64,000 nt of DNA from Lysobacter changpingensis (GTDB lineage Bacteria; Pseudomonadota; Gammaproteobacteria; Xanthomonadales; Xanthomonadaceae): NCBI RefSeq assembly GCF_017308985.1, contig NZ_JADWPE010000002.1:744001-808000 (forward strand). Direction: 5' to 3'. Under the pieces are notes generated by a model. That model saw only the letters and a list, made by a program, of their open reading frames with translations, searched no databases and had not been told where the DNA came from. The stretch's first letter is position 1. The number at the start of each line of letters is the position of its first letter. This document shows, one piece after another, positions 50,890-59,053 of this stretch. Made by a program: the position numbers and the translations under genes.

Positions 50890-51143
50890 CGGGTCGGTCG
50901 GGCCTGGGCGTTTCGGGGGAAGGACGGGCCAGTGTGGTGCAACGGACGCATGCAGCGCGTGGGCATCCGCCGTGGGCCGCCCTGCGCCCGAGCCTCCGCC
51001 TTTGCCGCCGCGACCGTCGCCGCCGGGCCCCACCGTTCCGCGGGCCGGGTGTGTGCGGCCTGCTAGAATCGGAGGTTCGTCCGAGGGCGTGAGGCGGCTG
51101 CGCGATGCGCGGCCCGGGATCGAATCCCCCTCACCGCCCAATT
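50890..51143. other. lptF-pepA divergent intergenic region
   Basis: No gene is supported here. A TAGAAT hexamer at 51064-51069 is a possible -10 for pepA, but no good -35 was found. The tandem palindromes at 51144-51180 lie at the pepA side. Confidence 0.4.
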
Positions 51144-51180
51144 GTACGGAACTGTCGTACTCCGTACGGAACTACCGTAC
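51144..51180 (+). promoter_or_regulatory. Tandem palindromic operator-like repeats upstream of pepA
   Basis: Two near-identical 17-base sites, GTACGGAACTGTCGTAC (51144-51160) and GTACGGAACTACCGTAC (51164-51180), are spaced exactly 20 bases start to start, that is about two helical turns. Each has inverted GTACG / CGTAC ends. They end 35 bases before the pepA ATG. This layout is what a cooperative dimeric regulator would use. The regulator is unknown. Confidence 0.5.
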
Positions 51181-51215
51181 GGAGCTGCCTCTCAATCTGC
51201 CCGGGAATCTGTTGG

Positions 51216-52694
51216 ATGGCCCTCGAATTCGACCTGAACCGCGACGCGCCCGCCGCCGCCCACACCGATTGCATCGTGGTCGGCGCCTTTGCCGACAACA
51301 GCCTGACGCCCGCGGCGAAAGCCCTCGATGAGGCCAGCAACGGCCGCATCCGCGCCCTGCTCGAGCGCGGCGACGCCAGCGGCAAGACCGGCAAGACCGC
51401 GCTGCTGCACGACCTGCCGGGCGTGACCGCGCCGCGAGTGCTGGTGATCGGCCTGGGCGAAGCCGGCAAGTTCGGCGTGCCGCAGTACCTCAAGGCCGTG
51501 GGCGACGCCGCCCGCGCGCTGAAGAGCGGCCCGGTGTCGACGGCGCTGTTCACGCTGTCCGAACTCGACGTCGCCGGCCGCGACAAGGCCTGGAACATCC
51601 GCCAGGCCGTGATCGCCGCCGACCACGCCTGCTATCGCTACACCGCCACGCTGGGCACCTCGCGCAAGAAGGACGAGCCGGGCCTGCGCACGTTCTCCGT
51701 GCTGGGCGACGACGCGCTCGCGCTGGCGCAGGGCCAGGCGATCGCCGCCGGCGTGCAGTTCTCGCGGGAGCTGGGCAACCTGCCGCCGAACATCTGCAAC
51801 CCCGCGTACCTGGCGCAGCAGGCACAGGAATTCGCCGGCCGCTTCCCGACCACCTCGTGCGACGTGCTCGACGTGGCGCAGATGCAGGAACTGGGCATGG
51901 GCTCGCTGCTGGCCGTGGGCCGCGGCTCGGCCAATCCGCCCAAGCTGATCGTCCTGAAGTACAGCAATGGCGGCGACGCCAAGCCGTACGTGCTCGTCGG
52001 CAAGGGCATCACCTTCGATACCGGCGGCATCAACCTCAAGACGCAGGGCGGCATCGAGGAAATGAAGTACGACATGTGCGGTGGCGCCACCGTCATGGGC
52101 ACCTTCGTCGCCGCGGTGGGCATGCAGCTGCCGATCAACCTCGTCGTGGTCGTGCCGGCCGTGGAAAACATGCCCGACGCCGATGCGTACCGCCCGTCCG
52201 ACGTACTCACCAGCATGTCCGGCAAGACGATCGAAGTGGGCAACACCGACGCCGAAGGCCGCCTGATCCTGTGCGACGCGCTGACCTATGCGCAGCGCTT
52301 CGAACCGCAGGCGCTGGTCGACGTGGCCACGCTCACCGGCGCATGCATGATCGCGCTGGGCAAGTTCGCCTCCGGCCTGATGAGCAAGCACGACGACCTG
52401 GCGAACGAACTGCTCGACGCCGGCGAGAACGTGTTCGACCGCGCGTGGCGCCTGCCGCTGTGGGACGAATACCAGACGCTGCTGGAATCCAGCTTCGCCG
52501 ACGTCTACAACATCGGCGGCCGCTGGGCCGGCGCGATCACCGCCGGCTGCTTCCTCGCCCGCTTCGCCGAAGGCCAGCGCTGGGCGCACCTGGACATCGC
52601 CGGCTCGGCGTCGGACGAGGGCAAGCGCGGCATGGCGACCGGCCGCCCGGTCGGCCTGCTGAGCCAGTGGCTGCTGGATCGGGCCGGGAATTGA
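51216..52694 (+). CDS. pepA: PepA, leucyl aminopeptidase (M17)
   Basis: PepA is a two-metal hexameric aminopeptidase; in E. coli it also binds DNA with XerCD, and xerD is 3 kb away here. The 492-residue protein has the N-terminal macro-like domain and the catalytic domain with [19 protein letters not shown] (metal Lys/Asp), [27 protein letters not shown] (metal Asp and Glu, active Arg), and a C-terminal [20 protein letters not shown]. The ATG at 51216 is chosen because the longer frame adds unconserved sequence. Confidence 0.96.
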
Positions 52695-52806
52695 GAACCG
52701 GGAATTGGGAATCGTGAAACACGCGCACGACGCAGATGGACTCGCTTCGAGTCATGAGGCCTGTCGCTCCTACGATTCCCCATTCCCCACTGCCGATTCC
52801 CGATCC
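52686..52806. repeat. GGGAATTGGGAATCG heptad inverted repeat between pepA and holC
   Basis: The left arm near 52686-52714 (GGGAATTGAGAACCGGGAAT, TGGGAATCG) and the right arm near 52775-52806 (CGATTCCCCATTCCCCACTG, CGATTCCCGATCC) are inverted heptad repeats. They fill the gap just after pepA and end a few bases before the holC ATG. Confidence 0.75.
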
Positions 52807-52808
52807 TG

Positions 52809-53231
52809 ATGGCACGCGCCGATTTCTACCTGATCCAGAAGGAGCGTTTCCGCGAGGAACCGCTCCTGCTGGTCTGCGAGCTGGCCCGCAAGGCGCACGA
52901 CGCGAACCTGTGGACGCTGGTGCTCGCGCGCGACGCCGAACAGGCCGAGCGACTGGACGAGCTGCTGTGGGAATTCGACGAGGACGCCTACATCCCGCAC
53001 CAGTTGGCCGGCGACGACGAGGACGAACTCGCGCCCGTGCTGATCGCCACGCCCGACACCGACACGCCCATGCGCGCGCTGGTGATCAACCTGCGCGACG
53101 AACCGGTCAACGGCAGCTTCGACCGCGTGCTGGAAGTGGTACCCGCCGACGACAGCGCGCGCGGCCCGCTGCGCGAACGCTGGAAGCAGTACCAGTCGCG
53201 CGGGCTGGAACTGAAGAAGTACGACATGTGA
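52809..53231 (+). CDS. holC: HolC, DNA polymerase III chi subunit
   Basis: HolC (chi) links the clamp loader to SSB. The 140-residue protein starts MARADFYLIQKERFREEPLL and has ACELARKAH-like CELARKAHDANLWTLVLARD, LDELLWEFDEDAYIPHQLAG, and VLVINL-like ALVINLRDEPVNGSFDRVLE, all consistent with chi. Order pepA-holC-valS is the common gammaproteobacterial arrangement. Its psi partner may be the gene at 57215-57643. Confidence 0.95.
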   Translation: MARADFYLIQKERFREEPLLLVCELARKAHDANLWTLVLARDAEQAERLDELLWEFDEDAYIPHQLAGDDEDELAPVLIATPDTDTPMRALVINLRDEPVNGSFDRVLEVVPADDSARGPLRERWKQYQSRGLELKKYDM

Positions 53232-53238
53232 GGAGCGG

Positions 53239-53336
53239 TGATGGGTGATTCGTGAATGGTGATTCGTTGAAGCCAAGCACGTACGCCGCCCCCTCCCGCT
53301 CTTTCGAATCACGAATCACCAATCACGAATCACGGC
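53239..53336. repeat. GATTCGTGA-type inverted repeat between holC and valS
   Basis: The left arm (GGGTGATTCGTGAATGGTGA, 53243-53266) and the right arm (CGAATCACGAATCACCAATC, 53308-53336) are inverted and made of 7 to 8 base units. This is the same design as the GGGAATCGG elements, with a different unit. Confidence 0.7.
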
Positions 53337-53339
53337 ATC

Positions 53340-56120
53340 ATGTCCTCCCTCGCCTCCTCCTACGACCCCAAGCAGTTCGAAACCCGCCTCTACCAGGAGT
53401 GGGAAGCCAGCGGCGTATTCCAGCCGCGCGGCGAAGGCGAGCCGTATTCGATCCTGCTGCCGCCGCCGAACGTCACCGGCACGCTGCACATGGGCCACGC
53501 GTTCCAGCACACGCTGATGGACGCGCTGATCCGCTACCACCGCATGCGCGGCTACGACACGCTGTGGCAGATGGGCACCGACCACGCGGGCATCGCGACG
53601 GAAATGGTCGTCTCGCGCAACCTCGCCGCCGAAGGCGCGGGCGAGACGCGCGACTCGCTGGGTCGCGACGGCTTCATCGCCAAGGTCTGGGAGTGGAAGC
53701 AGCAGTCCGGCGACACCATCGAGAAGCAGATGCGGCGCATCGGCGCGTCGGGCGACTGGTCGCGCAGCGTGTTCACGATGGACCCGATGGCCGCCGAGGC
53801 GGTGATCGAGGCGTTCGTTCGCCTGTACGAGGACGGCCTGATCTACCGCGGCCAGCGCCTGGTCAACTGGGATCCGGTACTGAAGACCGCGATCTCCGAC
53901 CTTGAAGTCGTCAACGAGGAGGAAGACGGCTTCCTGTGGTCGATCAGCTATCCGCTGACCGACGGCAGCGGCGAACTCACCGTCGCCACGACGCGCCCGG
54001 AAACCATGCTCGGCGACGTCGCCGTGATGGTGCATCCGCAGGACGAGCGCTACACGCACCTCATCGGCAGGACCGTCACGCTGCCGCTCACCGGCCGCGA
54101 AATCCCGGTCATCGCCGACGATTACGTCGATCGCGAATTCGGCACCGGCGTGGTGAAGGTCACGCCGGCGCACGACTTCAACGACTACGCGGTCGGCCAA
54201 CGCCACAACCTCGAACTGATCAACATCTTCACCCCCACCGCGGCGGTGAACGAGAACGCGCCGGAGAAATACCGCGGCCTGGACCGCTACGAGGCGCGCA
54301 AGGTCGTGCTCGCCGACCTGGAAGCCGCAGGCCGCCTCGTCGAGACCAAGCCGCACAAGCTGCAGGTGCCGCGCGGCGATCGCACCGGCCAGGTGATCGA
54401 GCCGTACCTCACCGACCAGTGGTTCGTGAAGATGGACGGACTGGCCGCGCGCGGGCTCGAACTGGTCGAGAAGGGCGACGTGAAGTTCGTCCCGGCGAAC
54501 TGGATCAACACCTACCGCCACTGGATGGAAAACATCCAGGACTGGTGCATCAGCCGCCAGCTGTGGTGGGGCCACCGCATCCCGGCCTGGTACGACGACG
54601 ACGGGAGGATCTACGTCGGCCGCACCGAGGAGGAAGTGCGCGCAAAGCGGGGCCTCGGCTCGAACGTGACGCTTTCGCAGGACAGCGACGTGCTGGAGAC
54701 GTGGTTCTCCTCGCAGCTGTGGCCGTTCTCGACGATGGGCTGGCCGGACGAGCAGGCCATGGCCGAGCGCGGCTTCGATCGCTACGTGCCGTCGAGCGTG
54801 CTGGTCACCGGCTTCGACATCATCTTCTTCTGGGTCGCGCGCATGATCATGGCGACCGACCAGTTCACCGGCCGCGTGCCGTTCCGCGACGTCTATGTCA
54901 CCGGCCTGATCCGCGATTCGCACGGCCAGAAGATGTCCAAGTCCAAGGGCAACGTGCTCGATCCGCTGGACCTGATCGACGGCATCTCGCTCGACGATCT
55001 CGTCGCCAAGCGCACCGGCGGCCTCATGCAGCCGAAGATGGCCGAGAAGATCGAGAAGGCGACGCGCAAGGAATTCCCGGACGGCATCCCCGCCTTCGGC
55101 GCCGACGCGCTGCGCTTCACCATCGCAGCACTGGCCACGCACGGCCGCGACATCAAGTTCGACCTCGGCCGCGCCGAGGGCTACAAGAATTTCTGCAACA
55201 AGCTGTGGAACGCCACGCGCTTCGTGCTGATGAACACCGAAGGCGCGAACTTCATCGGCGTCCCGGACCCGAAGACCGATGCCGAGCGCTGGATCCTCTC
55301 GCGCCTGGCGAAGGTCGCCGCCGAGGCCGAGCAGCATTTCGCCGGCTACCGCTTCGACCTGCTGTCGCAGGCGCTGTACGAATTCGCGTGGAACGAGTTC
55401 TGCGACTGGTTCGTCGAGCTGGCCAAGCCCGCGCTGCAGGGCGAGGACGCCCTCGCCGCCAACAGCACGCGCCACACGCTGCTGTTCGTGCTCGAACGCC
55501 TGCTGTCGCTGCTGCACCCGCTGATCCCGTTCGTGACCGAGGAGCTGTGGCAGCAGGTCGCGCCGAAGCTCGGCGTCGGCGAAAAGACGATCATGCTGCG
55601 CCCGTACCCGCAGGCATCGGACTTCGCTGGGCAGGACTACGCCGCGGCCGAAGGCGATGTCGAATGGCTCAAGGCGATGGTCACCTCGCTGCGCAAGATC
55701 CGCAGCGAGCTCAACGTCGCGCCGTCGAAGACCGTGCCGTTGCTGCTCGCCGATGCGGGCGCAAGCGATCGCGAACGCGCGGCGCGTTTCGACTCGCAGT
55801 TGCGCTTCCTGACGCGCCTTGAGTCCATCGCGATCCTCGACGACGCGAACGCCGCGCCGGCCGCCGCCACCGCGCTGGTCGGCGAACTGAAACTGCTGGT
55901 GCCGCTGGAAGGGCTGGTCGACCTTGGCGCGGAGCGCACGCGCCTGGACAAGGAACTCAAGCGCGTCGATGGCGAGATCGCCAAGTGCCACAACAAGCTG
56001 GCGAGCGAAACCTTCGTCGCCAACGCCCCGCCGGCGGTGGTCGAACAGGAGCGCAAGCGCCTGGCCGACTGGAACCTGCAGCGCGACGCGCTGGCGGTGC
56101 AGCGCGCGAAGCTGGGCTGA
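53340..56120 (+). CDS. valS: ValS, valyl-tRNA synthetase
   Basis: Class I synthetase charging tRNA-Val. The 926-residue protein has [20 protein letters not shown] (HIGH motif as HMGH near residue 50), [10 protein letters not shown], the editing domain ([20 protein letters not shown]), and the KMSKS motif as [14 protein letters not shown] near 529. A C-terminal coiled-coil tail ([20 protein letters not shown]) is present. The start [20 protein letters not shown] is standard. Confidence 0.98.
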
Positions 56121-56723: not shown

Positions 56724-57218
56724 TCAGTCTTCCGGCGGCAACAGCTCGATGGCCATCACCAGGGCGTCCTCGCGGCCGTCCCGCGCCGGGTAGTAGCGCG
56801 GACGGCGGCCGATCTCGTTGAAGCCTTCGGAGTGGTAGAGCGCGATCGCCCCCGCGTTGGAGGGGCGCACCTCGAGGAACACCCGCTCGGCATTGCGCCC
56901 GCGCGCGACGCGGACCAGCGCGCGCAGCAACTGGCGGCCGAGCCCGCGCCCCTGGAAGGCCGGATCGATGCAGATGTTGAGCACGTGCGCCTCGTCGGCG
57001 GCGATGCTCATCAGGAAATAGCCGATGATGCGGCTTTCGTGCTGCATCACCCACGCGGGGTAATCGGCGCGCAGGCAGTCGCGGAAGATCCCGACCGTCC
57101 ACGGGAATTCGTAGGCGCGGATCTCCACCGCGTGCACGGCGTCGAGATCGTCCTCGCGCATCGGACGCAGCGCGCCGGGCAGCGGGCGTTGGCCGGCGTC
57201 GGAGGCGAGCGCATTCAT
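56724..57218 (-). CDS. rimI: RimI, ribosomal protein S18 N-alpha-acetyltransferase
   Basis: RimI acetylates the N-terminal alanine of S18. The 164-residue GNAT protein has LRPMREDDLDAVHAVEIRAY, FPWTVGIFRDCLRADYPAWV, AHVLNICIDPAFQGRGLGRQ (acetyl-CoA loop near 90-105) and ALYHSEGFNEIGRRPRYYPA. The start ATG overlaps the stop of the upstream gene (ATGA). Upstream neighbour and overlap match the holD-rimI order of E. coli. Confidence 0.94.
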   Translation of the reverse strand: MNALASDAGQRPLPGALRPMREDDLDAVHAVEIRAYEFPWTVGIFRDCLRADYPAWVMQHESRIIGYFLMSIAADEAHVLNICIDPAFQGRGLGRQLLRALVRVARGRNAERVFLEVRPSNAGAIALYHSEGFNEIGRRPRYYPARDGREDALVMAIELLPPED

Positions 57219-57643
57219 CCGCGCGATGTCCTGCGCAGTGCGCGCAGCCGCGGCCACAGCGCGCGCTTGGCGGCGGCGTTGCCGCGCAGCGCGGCGAGGT
57301 CGCCGGCGAGGTCGCGCACGCGTGCTTCGTCGGCACCGCCGCTGGCGCGCATCAGCGCCTGCATCAGGCGGTCGCCGCCTGCCGCGCGTGCCGGGGCCGG
57401 CCTCGCGGGCGCGGGTCGCGCCGGGCGCTCCTCGCGTGCGAGCAACGCCGCCGCTTCGCGCATCGCGGCGCCCGCACCGGAGGAGCCGGCTGGGGCTTCG
57501 CGTCCACGCTCGTCAGGGCCGCGTTCGTCGGGCGACTCCGGCTGCCGCTCGGCGACCAGCGCCTCCGCCGGCGCGATGGACCACACCGTGTGGCCCATGG
57601 CCTCCAGCCATTCGCGCTGCTCGGCGGTCCACGGCTCGGTCAT
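57215..57643 (-). CDS. holD: Probable HolD, DNA polymerase III psi subunit (divergent)
   Basis: The 142-residue protein overlaps rimI downstream and pssA upstream by 4 bases each. Its start, RREW-like QREWLEAMGHTVWSIAPAEA (about residues 9-28), lines up with E. coli psi (R-x-W-x-x-x-LGI-x-x-W-S), the peptide that docks on the clamp loader. Its end, AALRGNAAAKRALWPRLRAL (about 117-136), lines up with the psi C-terminal helix (LRANPTARAALWQQI). The middle is an Ala, Pro and Arg rich linker in place of the first half of the psi fold. The call rests on my recall of E. coli psi and the holD-rimI order. Confidence 0.6.
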   Translation of the reverse strand: MTEPWTAEQREWLEAMGHTVWSIAPAEALVAERQPESPDERGPDERGREAPAGSSGAGAAMREAAALLAREERPARPAPARPAPARAAGGDRLMQALMRASGGADEARVRDLAGDLAALRGNAAAKRALWPRLRALRRTSRG

Positions 57644-58416
57644 GACGCGATCTCGCTCCCCGGTGCGCGACGCACGCGGCGGAACGCGGCGTACACCGGT
57701 CCGGACAAGGCGTACAGCGCGCCGATCGCCAACAGCACGCGCGGCGGATCGATGGCGATGCCGACCAGCACCGCCAGCACCACGATGATGGCGAGGAACG
57801 GCACGCGGTCGCTCTTCGGACCGCCGCCCTTGAAGCTGAAATAGCGCATCCGGCTGACCATCAGCAGGCCCGCCGCCACGGTGACGCCCAGCGCGAGGTA
57901 GCGCAGCTGCTCGCCGGTGAAGCCCAGGTCGTCGCAGGTCCACACGAAGCTGGCGACCAGCCCCGCCGCGGCGGGACTCGCCAGGCCGATGAACCAGCGC
58001 TTGTCCACTTGGCCCACCTGCGAATTGAAGCGCGCCAGCCGCAGCGCCGCGCAGGCCGCGTAGACGAACGCGGCGACCCAGCCGATCTTGCCGGGGATCG
58101 CGCCGTCCAGCCGCATCTCCTGCAGCGCCCAGTGGTACATGACCAGCGCCGGCGCCAGGCCGAAGCTGACCAGGTCCGCCAGCGAGTCGTACTGCACGCC
58201 GAATTCGCTCTGCGTGTTGGTCAGGCGCGCGACGCGGCCGTCGAGGCCATCGAGGATGCCGGCGACGAACACCGCGATGCAGGCGTCGTCGAAGCGGCCC
58301 TGCGTGGCGGCGATGATCGCGTAGAAGCCGGCGAACAGGCCGCCGGTGGTGAACAGGTTGGGCAGCAGGTAGATCCCGCGGCCACGCGGGCGTGGGGGCT
58401 GTTGCGTGTCGTCCAT
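57640..58416 (-). CDS. pssA: PssA, CDP-diacylglycerol:serine O-phosphatidyltransferase
   Basis: Makes phosphatidylserine in the inner membrane, the precursor of phosphatidylethanolamine. The 258-residue protein has the CDP-alcohol phosphotransferase motif DG-x2-AR-x8-G-x3-D-x3-D as LDGLDGRVARLTNTQSEFGV then QYDSLAD (about residues 60-85), with eight or so hydrophobic helices. The start MDDTQQPPRPRGRGIYLLPN at 58416 is chosen; an ATG at 58434 adds six residues. This is the multispan form, not the soluble E. coli form. Confidence 0.94.
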   Translation of the reverse strand: MDDTQQPPRPRGRGIYLLPNLFTTGGLFAGFYAIIAATQGRFDDACIAVFVAGILDGLDGRVARLTNTQSEFGVQYDSLADLVSFGLAPALVMYHWALQEMRLDGAIPGKIGWVAAFVYAACAALRLARFNSQVGQVDKRWFIGLASPAAAGLVASFVWTCDDLGFTGEQLRYLALGVTVAAGLLMVSRMRYFSFKGGGPKSDRVPFLAIIVVLAVLVGIAIDPPRVLLAIGALYALSGPVYAAFRRVRRAPGSEIAS

Positions 58417-58642
58417 GTGGGGGGCAGTCGGCATGACGGATCGGGGAAGCGGCGGACCGCGACAGGAAAGTGTAAGTCCATCGGCGCGCGACCCGGCATC
58501 CCCGGGACGGTCGCCGCGTCGCGCGGGCAACGAGACCCAGGCCACATAAGTGGACGATAGCGGCTCCCGGCGCTTGCCTGCGGCCGGTCGCGGTGCTGCA
58601 ATCGCGGCCATTCCCCCGCCCGACCGCGCCCCGGAGCCCTGC

Positions 58643-59053
58643 ATGTCCAGCCCGATCCGCCTGCTGCCCGGCCTCCTGGCCGGCCTGAGCCTGCTCATCG
58701 CGACCCCGGCCTTCGCCGCGAAGGTCTACCAGTGGAAGGACGAGAAGGGCGTTACCCACTATTCCGACGCGCCGCCGCCGGACCAGTACATCAAGGGCCG
58801 CAACCTGACCGACAAGGGCGGCACGGCGGAGGCCGCGCAGCCGGCCAAGCCCGTCGTCAACGCCAACTGCTCCAATGCGCGCAGCAACCTGGCCGTGCTC
58901 AAGGACGGCGGCGAGGTAGGCATCGACGAGGACAAGGACGGCAAGCCCGACCGCAGCCTCAACGAGACCGAGCGCGCCAACCGCACTGCGCTGGCCGAAG
59001 CTCAGATCAAGACCTACTGCGAGAGCCCGGCGGTCGCCAGCAGCAACACCTGA
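58643..59053 (+). CDS. DUF4124 domain periplasmic protein
   Basis: The 136-residue product has a signal peptide (IRLLPGLLAGLSLLIATPAF, cleaved after AFA) and the DUF4124 signature KVYQWKDEKGVTHYSDAPPP. The rest is hydrophilic with two cysteines (NANCSNARSNLAV and TYCESPAV) that could form a disulfide. The family is common in gammaproteobacteria and has no assigned function. Confidence 0.85.
   Translation: MSSPIRLLPGLLAGLSLLIATPAFAAKVYQWKDEKGVTHYSDAPPPDQYIKGRNLTDKGGTAEAAQPAKPVVNANCSNARSNLAVLKDGGEVGIDEDKDGKPDRSLNETERANRTALAEAQIKTYCESPAVASSNT

Follow-up and report, generated by a model that had tools for sequence, protein, structure and literature searches.

How is chi (HolC) tied to the clamp loader in a bacterium in which psi (HolD) is not recognised? 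According to the available portion of the review PMC3290774, chi occurs in more proteobacteria than psi; psi may simply have diverged beyond recognition, or else chi may make its own contact with tau. The question is raised by 64,000 nucleotides of Lysobacter changpingensis (contig NZ_JADWPE010000002.1, positions 744,001 to 808,000; this whole stretch is termed the window), in which holC lies near a small open reading frame (ORF) directly upstream of rimI. As judged from its sequence, this ORF encodes a homologue of psi in a reduced form, and our comparisons suggest that psi is a decayed family-4 uracil-DNA glycosylase (UDG), of which the window gene would represent a late stage. The best explanation as a whole, which we regard as likely, is a reduced psi that serves as a flexible tether of chi and descends from a UDG encoded beside rimI.

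Psi elements retained in the window protein

57215..57643, minus strand: holD-like coding sequence (putative reduced psi), 142 residues plus stop (ORF, homologues, psi profiles)
57572..57643, minus strand: N-terminal clamp-loader-type peptide MTEPWTAEQREWLEAMGHTVWSIA, residues 1-24 (peptide profile; profile match)
57380..57571, minus strand: A/P/R/E-rich linker, residues 25-88, variable in length among relatives (composition, model)
57344..57373, minus strand: helix DRLMQALMRA, residues 91-100 (counterparts DPLVSDVLRA in Escherichia coli psi and LLxxMLxAIG in UDG)
57221..57289, minus strand: C-terminal helix LRGNAAAKRALWPRLRALRRTSR, residues 119-141 (counterpart LRANPTARAALWQQ in E. coli psi)

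With WLEAMGHTVWS near its start and LRGNAAAKRALWPRLRALRR near its end, the protein resembles psi at both ends as a first-pass annotation had described, except that the start reads MG where LG had been given. That annotation proposed a psi stripped to two elements; three are retained, for besides the N-terminal peptide and the C-terminal helix LRxNxxAKRALW there is the helix DRLxxALxRA. E. coli psi (HolD, PF03603, PDB 3SXU/1EM8/8GIY) likewise has an N-terminal W..LGI..WS-type peptide, the helix DPLxxxxLRA, a C-terminal LRxNxxAxxALW and a gene before rimI, whereas the window protein differs from it in having no predicted strand, a low-complexity middle and a score below the Pfam cut-off.

The window protein alone scored E=0.0033 and 3.4e-4 with psi hidden Markov models (HMMs; effective database of 1000), and none of 1323 decoys reached 0.01. 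With an HMM built from other psi proteins only, the N-terminal peptide scored E=0.043 at residues 8-21. A family profile with 32 members, in which 31 of 51 named relatives joined the window protein, had six PDB matches at E≤10, the top three of which (0.0086, 0.0089 and 0.011) are three entries of one protein, E. coli psi; the profile aligned the DxLxxxxLRA helix and then LRxNxxAxxALW with this protein in order. In hhalign comparisons of 19 stripped proteins with other psi sets, P was 1.8e-9, 1.5e-11 and 1.3e-12, and 0 of 150 column-shuffled decoys reached the score in each. Profile A1 served as the anchor of those sets; it has five PDB matches at E≤10 (best 4.4e-6), and each of them is E. coli psi. 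PF03603 and A1 scans found no better holD elsewhere in the genome, and the holD-like gene is the only place that PF03603 reports there at E≤10 (E=3.54).

Several results weigh against this assignment. The profile match expected of a psi was significant at the family level but failed for the single sequence: against PF03603 the window protein reached E=0.062 and 14 bits (gathering cut-off 22.2), phmmer against the PDB gave 0 matches, and NCBIfam gave none. The two blocks shared by the family profile and E. coli psi are singly weak (i-Evalues 1.6 and about 380), and only their sum is good. Six of the 15 members of comparison set D and all 19 of set O were chosen partly by the C-terminal pattern, so agreement is favoured at that end. 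In the A1 scan of the genome the window gene was unlisted, and one other place appeared at E=0.119, with an internal stop and chance-like. In set A3, only 10 of 32 members have a PF03603 match at E≤1 (the best at 0.029), and 12 further families each match a single member. A Foldseek search of the window model against the PDB gave 0 matches, and a profile of UDGs (set U, below) did not match the window protein alone (E=0.26). The Pfam threshold itself is severe: recognised psi is rare, the gathering cut-off being passed in 10 of 185 genomes drawn from the GTDB class Gammaproteobacteria (the class sample), and thus it misses most psi. An unrelated small protein that resembles psi at both ends by chance or low complexity would account for the weak single-sequence scores and the low-complexity linker; we consider this very improbable, however, because the family-level profiles were reached by 0 decoys, the three elements stand in order and the place beside rimI is conserved.

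Position and conservation of the gene

56724..57218, minus strand: rimI, overlapping the holD-like gene by ATGA (TIGR01575, E=4.2e-42)
57640..58698, minus strand: pssA-like gene for a CDP-alcohol phosphatidyltransferase, overlapping the holD-like gene by ATGA, start putative
52809..53231, plus strand: holC (chi), about 4 kb from the holD-like gene (PF04364, E=2.6e-35)

The reading order on the minus strand is pssA-like gene, holD-like gene, rimI. The first-pass annotation had placed the gene directly upstream of rimI with an ATGA overlap and holC in the same window; both are seen, and a second ATGA overlap joins the gene to its upstream neighbour. Homologues at E≤0.001 occur in 29 of the 59 genomes of the relatives set, which makes the ORF more than a chance one, and in 26 of these 29 it lies directly upstream of rimI; as to the other three, the stretch of L028 holds no rimI, and L021 and L023 fall outside the listing, the L021 homologue being present as locus L073. 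Comparison of the window gene with four relatives from Lysobacteraceae gave whole-gene ratios of nonsynonymous to synonymous substitution of about 0.27-0.34 (four pairs). The gene is real and, taken over its full length, is under purifying selection.

Predicted structure without a beta sheet

The centre of the protein had been described as rich in Pro, Ala and Arg, and indeed A, P, R, E, S, G and D make up 91% of residues 25-88. An AlphaFold2 model made with 32 sequences (mean predicted local distance difference test, pLDDT, 78.2; predicted template modelling score 0.41) contains helices at residues 7-15, 26-32, 57-71, 92-100, 106-113, 116-119 and 123-141. Its C-terminal end, residues 91-140, is a confident four-helix unit (block pLDDT 93-95), while in the linker, where the helix at 57-71 is the one predicted, model confidence is low over about residues 31-60. 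No beta strand is found in this model, nor in that of an 84-residue Luteimonas relative that has no linker (mean pLDDT 83.1). In these predictions the folded alpha/beta psi domain with its beta sheet is absent, and therefore we use the term 'psi descendant' rather than member of the fold-defined PF03603 domain. The stripped-down psi that had been proposed thus stands as a psi homologue at the place of holD that is predicted to lack the alpha/beta fold.

Divergence of psi is also described for Pseudomonas, in the excerpted text of PMC3197488: a flexible and probably unstructured stretch is present and the peptide and chi-binding residues are kept, as in the window protein; the Pseudomonas psi is, however, larger and retains a folded core, which the window protein does not have.

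Family-4 UDGs beside rimI and a proposed origin of psi

In the class sample, PF03603 matches were repeatedly located in the N-terminal 25 residues of ORFs 220-300 amino acids long, and these peptide-bearing ORFs are family-4 UDGs, mostly adjoining rimI. We considered 140 rimI loci, the best-scoring places from the 152 genomes with a match among the 185 (G000 left out), and scored the peptide with an HMM built only from psi proteins that are not UDGs. A family-4 UDG lies within 1.3 kb upstream of rimI in 104 of these loci, of which 92 carry the psi peptide, 6 a weak one and 6 none; no other ORF among 2246 matched the peptide HMM. Among the loci that remain, psi occurs without a UDG in 17, and in 19 the HMMs report neither, although at least one of the latter (L073) holds a window-type psi that the HMM missed. 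A set of 92 UDGs (set U) was defined by the UDG or C-terminal pattern together with an N-terminal pattern that fixes the [ML], G-like and hydrophobic positions, and their N-terminal consensus is RRQYLDAMGIDVWVRR; at positions free of this selection, W is present in 84 of 92, R in 78 and Y in 65. Their enzyme motifs are largely intact (GEAPGxxED in 87 of 92, CxxC in 87, KCxP in 86 and HPx[aromatic] in 90; all together in 81), whereas the same four motifs occur in 0, 0, 0 and 1 of 15 psi proteins. The presence of holC adds no independent correlation, for 90 of the 92 peptide-bearing loci are in holC genomes but 130 of the 140 genomes overall have holC (in the class sample it is present in 156 of 185 genomes, and across the phylum in 144 of 150).

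The relation between psi and UDG extends beyond the peptide. An HMM of psi set D found all 92 UDGs at E≤1e-4, with 0 of 1152 decoys at E≤0.01. When the peptide and C-terminus were cut off and nine psi proteins recruited by PF03603 only (7 over its cut-off) were compared with the 92 UDGs, the cores aligned with Prob 91.6, P=8.2e-7 and a score of 46; the best of 300 decoys scored 19.8 and the reversed control 10.2. In this alignment LIIGEAPG corresponds to the first psi strand region, LLxxMLxAIG to psi helix 1 and PKVILxxG to the next strand. Graded psi-UDG intermediates were found, and a joint profile matches solved UDGs at 1.6e-38 and psi entries at 0.11-0.19. Were the clamp-loader peptide a transferable tag that joined a UDG and an unrelated psi fold in separate fusions, psi would not be a decayed UDG. 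The window protein, whose one significant match to UDGs lies in the peptide (hhalign P=4.8e-5 with UDG-borne peptides, residues 2-29), would fit such a history, but we judge it quite unlikely given the ordered alignment of trimmed cores well above the decoy maximum, the single alignment of intermediates that finds both solved UDGs and psi entries, and the rimI neighbour common to psi and UDG.

Descent of psi from UDG thus remains the preferred reading. The rimI-side family-4 UDG (solved relatives 1UI0 and 4ZBX) resembles the window protein in its N-terminal peptide, LLxxML helix, C-terminal LLRxPxxKRxxWxDL and gene neighbour. The window protein differs from family-4 UDGs (TIGR00758 / PF03167) in possessing none of the iron-sulfur cysteines, catalytic motifs or UDG domain: the four-cysteine site, GEAPG and HPxxLL are not found in it, and PF03167 gives no match. 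The ancestor would be a family-4 UDG beside rimI with the same N-terminal peptide, in which the catalytic motifs may have been lost first (E. coli-type psi), the beta sheet disappearing later, in the window gene and its relatives. An open-access literature search revealed no psi-UDG link by title.

A tag common to all family-4 UDGs was ruled out, as 0 of 27 out-of-class loci matched the psi peptide at E≤1; the phylum loci were the best 30 of 113 genomes with a match, and the three within the class gave E=0.00019, 0.38 and 0.97. Many out-of-class family-4 UDGs (among L237-L264 except L256) have a different extension at the N-terminus (YLREIGVxTP or FYADIGVD, with a linker behind it), which could possibly be an older docking peptide. 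In beta-proteobacteria the UDGs of Mycetohabitans rhizoxinica and Candidatus Vallotia lariciata start with MTQLDAILEELGIAPLWVRR and MAQLNMILEELGITSLWVFR, and their UDG parts match the psi HMM at 2.4e-7 and 3.2e-7; the psi-peptide HMM, however, gave E=0.87 and 74, and PF03603 gave no match at E≤1 in either. The beta-proteobacterial case is weaker than the impression by eye. Candidatus Vallotia lariciata, an insect endosymbiont, carries tsaB-rimI-UDG on a 61 kb plasmid with 27 listed features (L342, 2132-3124), the UDG standing after rimI and not before. In L166 (G190) the rimI-side UDG is seemingly split, by eye, by an intein-like insertion that ends ...VVHNC immediately ahead of the conserved CRPPNNRDP.

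Reduction of psi in the order of the window genome

A scan of named genomes returned 56 loci in Lysobacter, Pseudoxanthomonas, Luteimonas, Thermomonas, Arenimonas, Vulcaniibacterium and others, the closest being Lysobacter soli and L. arvi. The proteins of 51 were read (5 left out) and are 76-182 residues long; the shortest Luteimonas relatives have about 82-84 (L311, L317), the lengths of the shortest being provisional because their start codons are uncertain. Among 29 rimI loci of the window's order (23 from other families and 6 from its own), none has a UDG core at E≤1e-5, and at E≤0.01 the HMMs identify a psi of type D or X in 25; by eye, L213 and L227, two of the remaining four, also look like psi. 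Judged by sequence, L206, L209 and L210, for example, keep a fuller fold, whereas L213, L216, L217 and L025 have only about 80 residues. The window genome itself has Ung-type and UdgX-like genes of the UDG superfamily, both without the psi peptide. In two other families psi also looks strongly reduced (L160 of G115 and L172 of G215; about 94 residues, and a long P/A/E-rich linker), which suggests that reduction happened more than once.

Chi and the proposed tether

In E. coli, as stated in the available part of PMC3290774, psi attaches by its N-terminus to domain III of the three DnaX subunits, and the tail of SSB is bound by chi. The portion of PMC8378479 at hand describes chi W57 and F64 as buried at the chi/psi interface and YoaA as occupying this site on chi by means of its last 18 residues; a C-terminal helix can therefore be enough. 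YoaA is a helicase, unlike the window protein, and its tail, a short C-terminal helix that acts as chi ligand at the W57/F64 site (PMC8378479, same portion), may be compared with that of the window protein by analogy. In the chi sequences read, W57 and R128 are present in 21 of 21, and position 64 is F in 18 and Y in 3, namely the window HolC and two relatives; the window HolC thus has W at E. coli W57, Y at F64 and R128 kept. The change of F64 to Y at this psi-facing position may track a reduced psi.

Given the psi N-terminus on DnaX, the site on chi and the conserved HolC residues, a flexible tether is the simplest reading. The N-terminal peptide would dock on the clamp-loader collar (DnaX), the C-terminal helices would grip chi, and the flexible linker would join both ends; chi, together with its SSB contact, would in this way be kept on the polymerase. 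It is unlikely, in our view, that this psi descendant keeps only the contact with the clamp loader, stabilising it, while chi is no longer held and pairs with, for example, a YoaA-type helicase. The psi fold is gone in the AlphaFold2 model, and in E. coli one site on chi serves both psi and YoaA (PMC8378479, in part), which could alone keep W57 conserved; however, conservation in the protein is highest in the C-terminal helix rather than in the N-terminal peptide, with KR[AS][LF]W in 51 of the 51 named relatives, although the search pattern itself included AKR[AS]LWP.

Discussion

The present comparisons offer a third answer to the puzzle of chi without psi, namely that psi is a UDG in many such genomes; in many bacteria believed to possess chi alone, psi is probably present in the guise of a UDG that looks intact. 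We lean towards a broader scenario in which psi is a UDG that lost its enzyme, and much of the 'missing' psi of beta- and gamma-proteobacteria is still a complete family-4 UDG whose N-terminal 20 residues hold the clamp loader and whose C-terminal helix holds chi, such that uracil repair would travel with the replisome; E. coli would have the decayed form, and Lysobacter and Luteimonas the all-helical end stage. If this is true, psi gains an evolutionary origin and a repair glycosylase is placed at the clamp loader; it would also show how little of psi suffices, down to about 82-84 residues in Luteimonas.

Elsewhere in the window, holC stands on the plus strand in a row (51105-56120) between two ORFs, which we take to be aminopeptidase-like and valyl-tRNA-synthetase-like.
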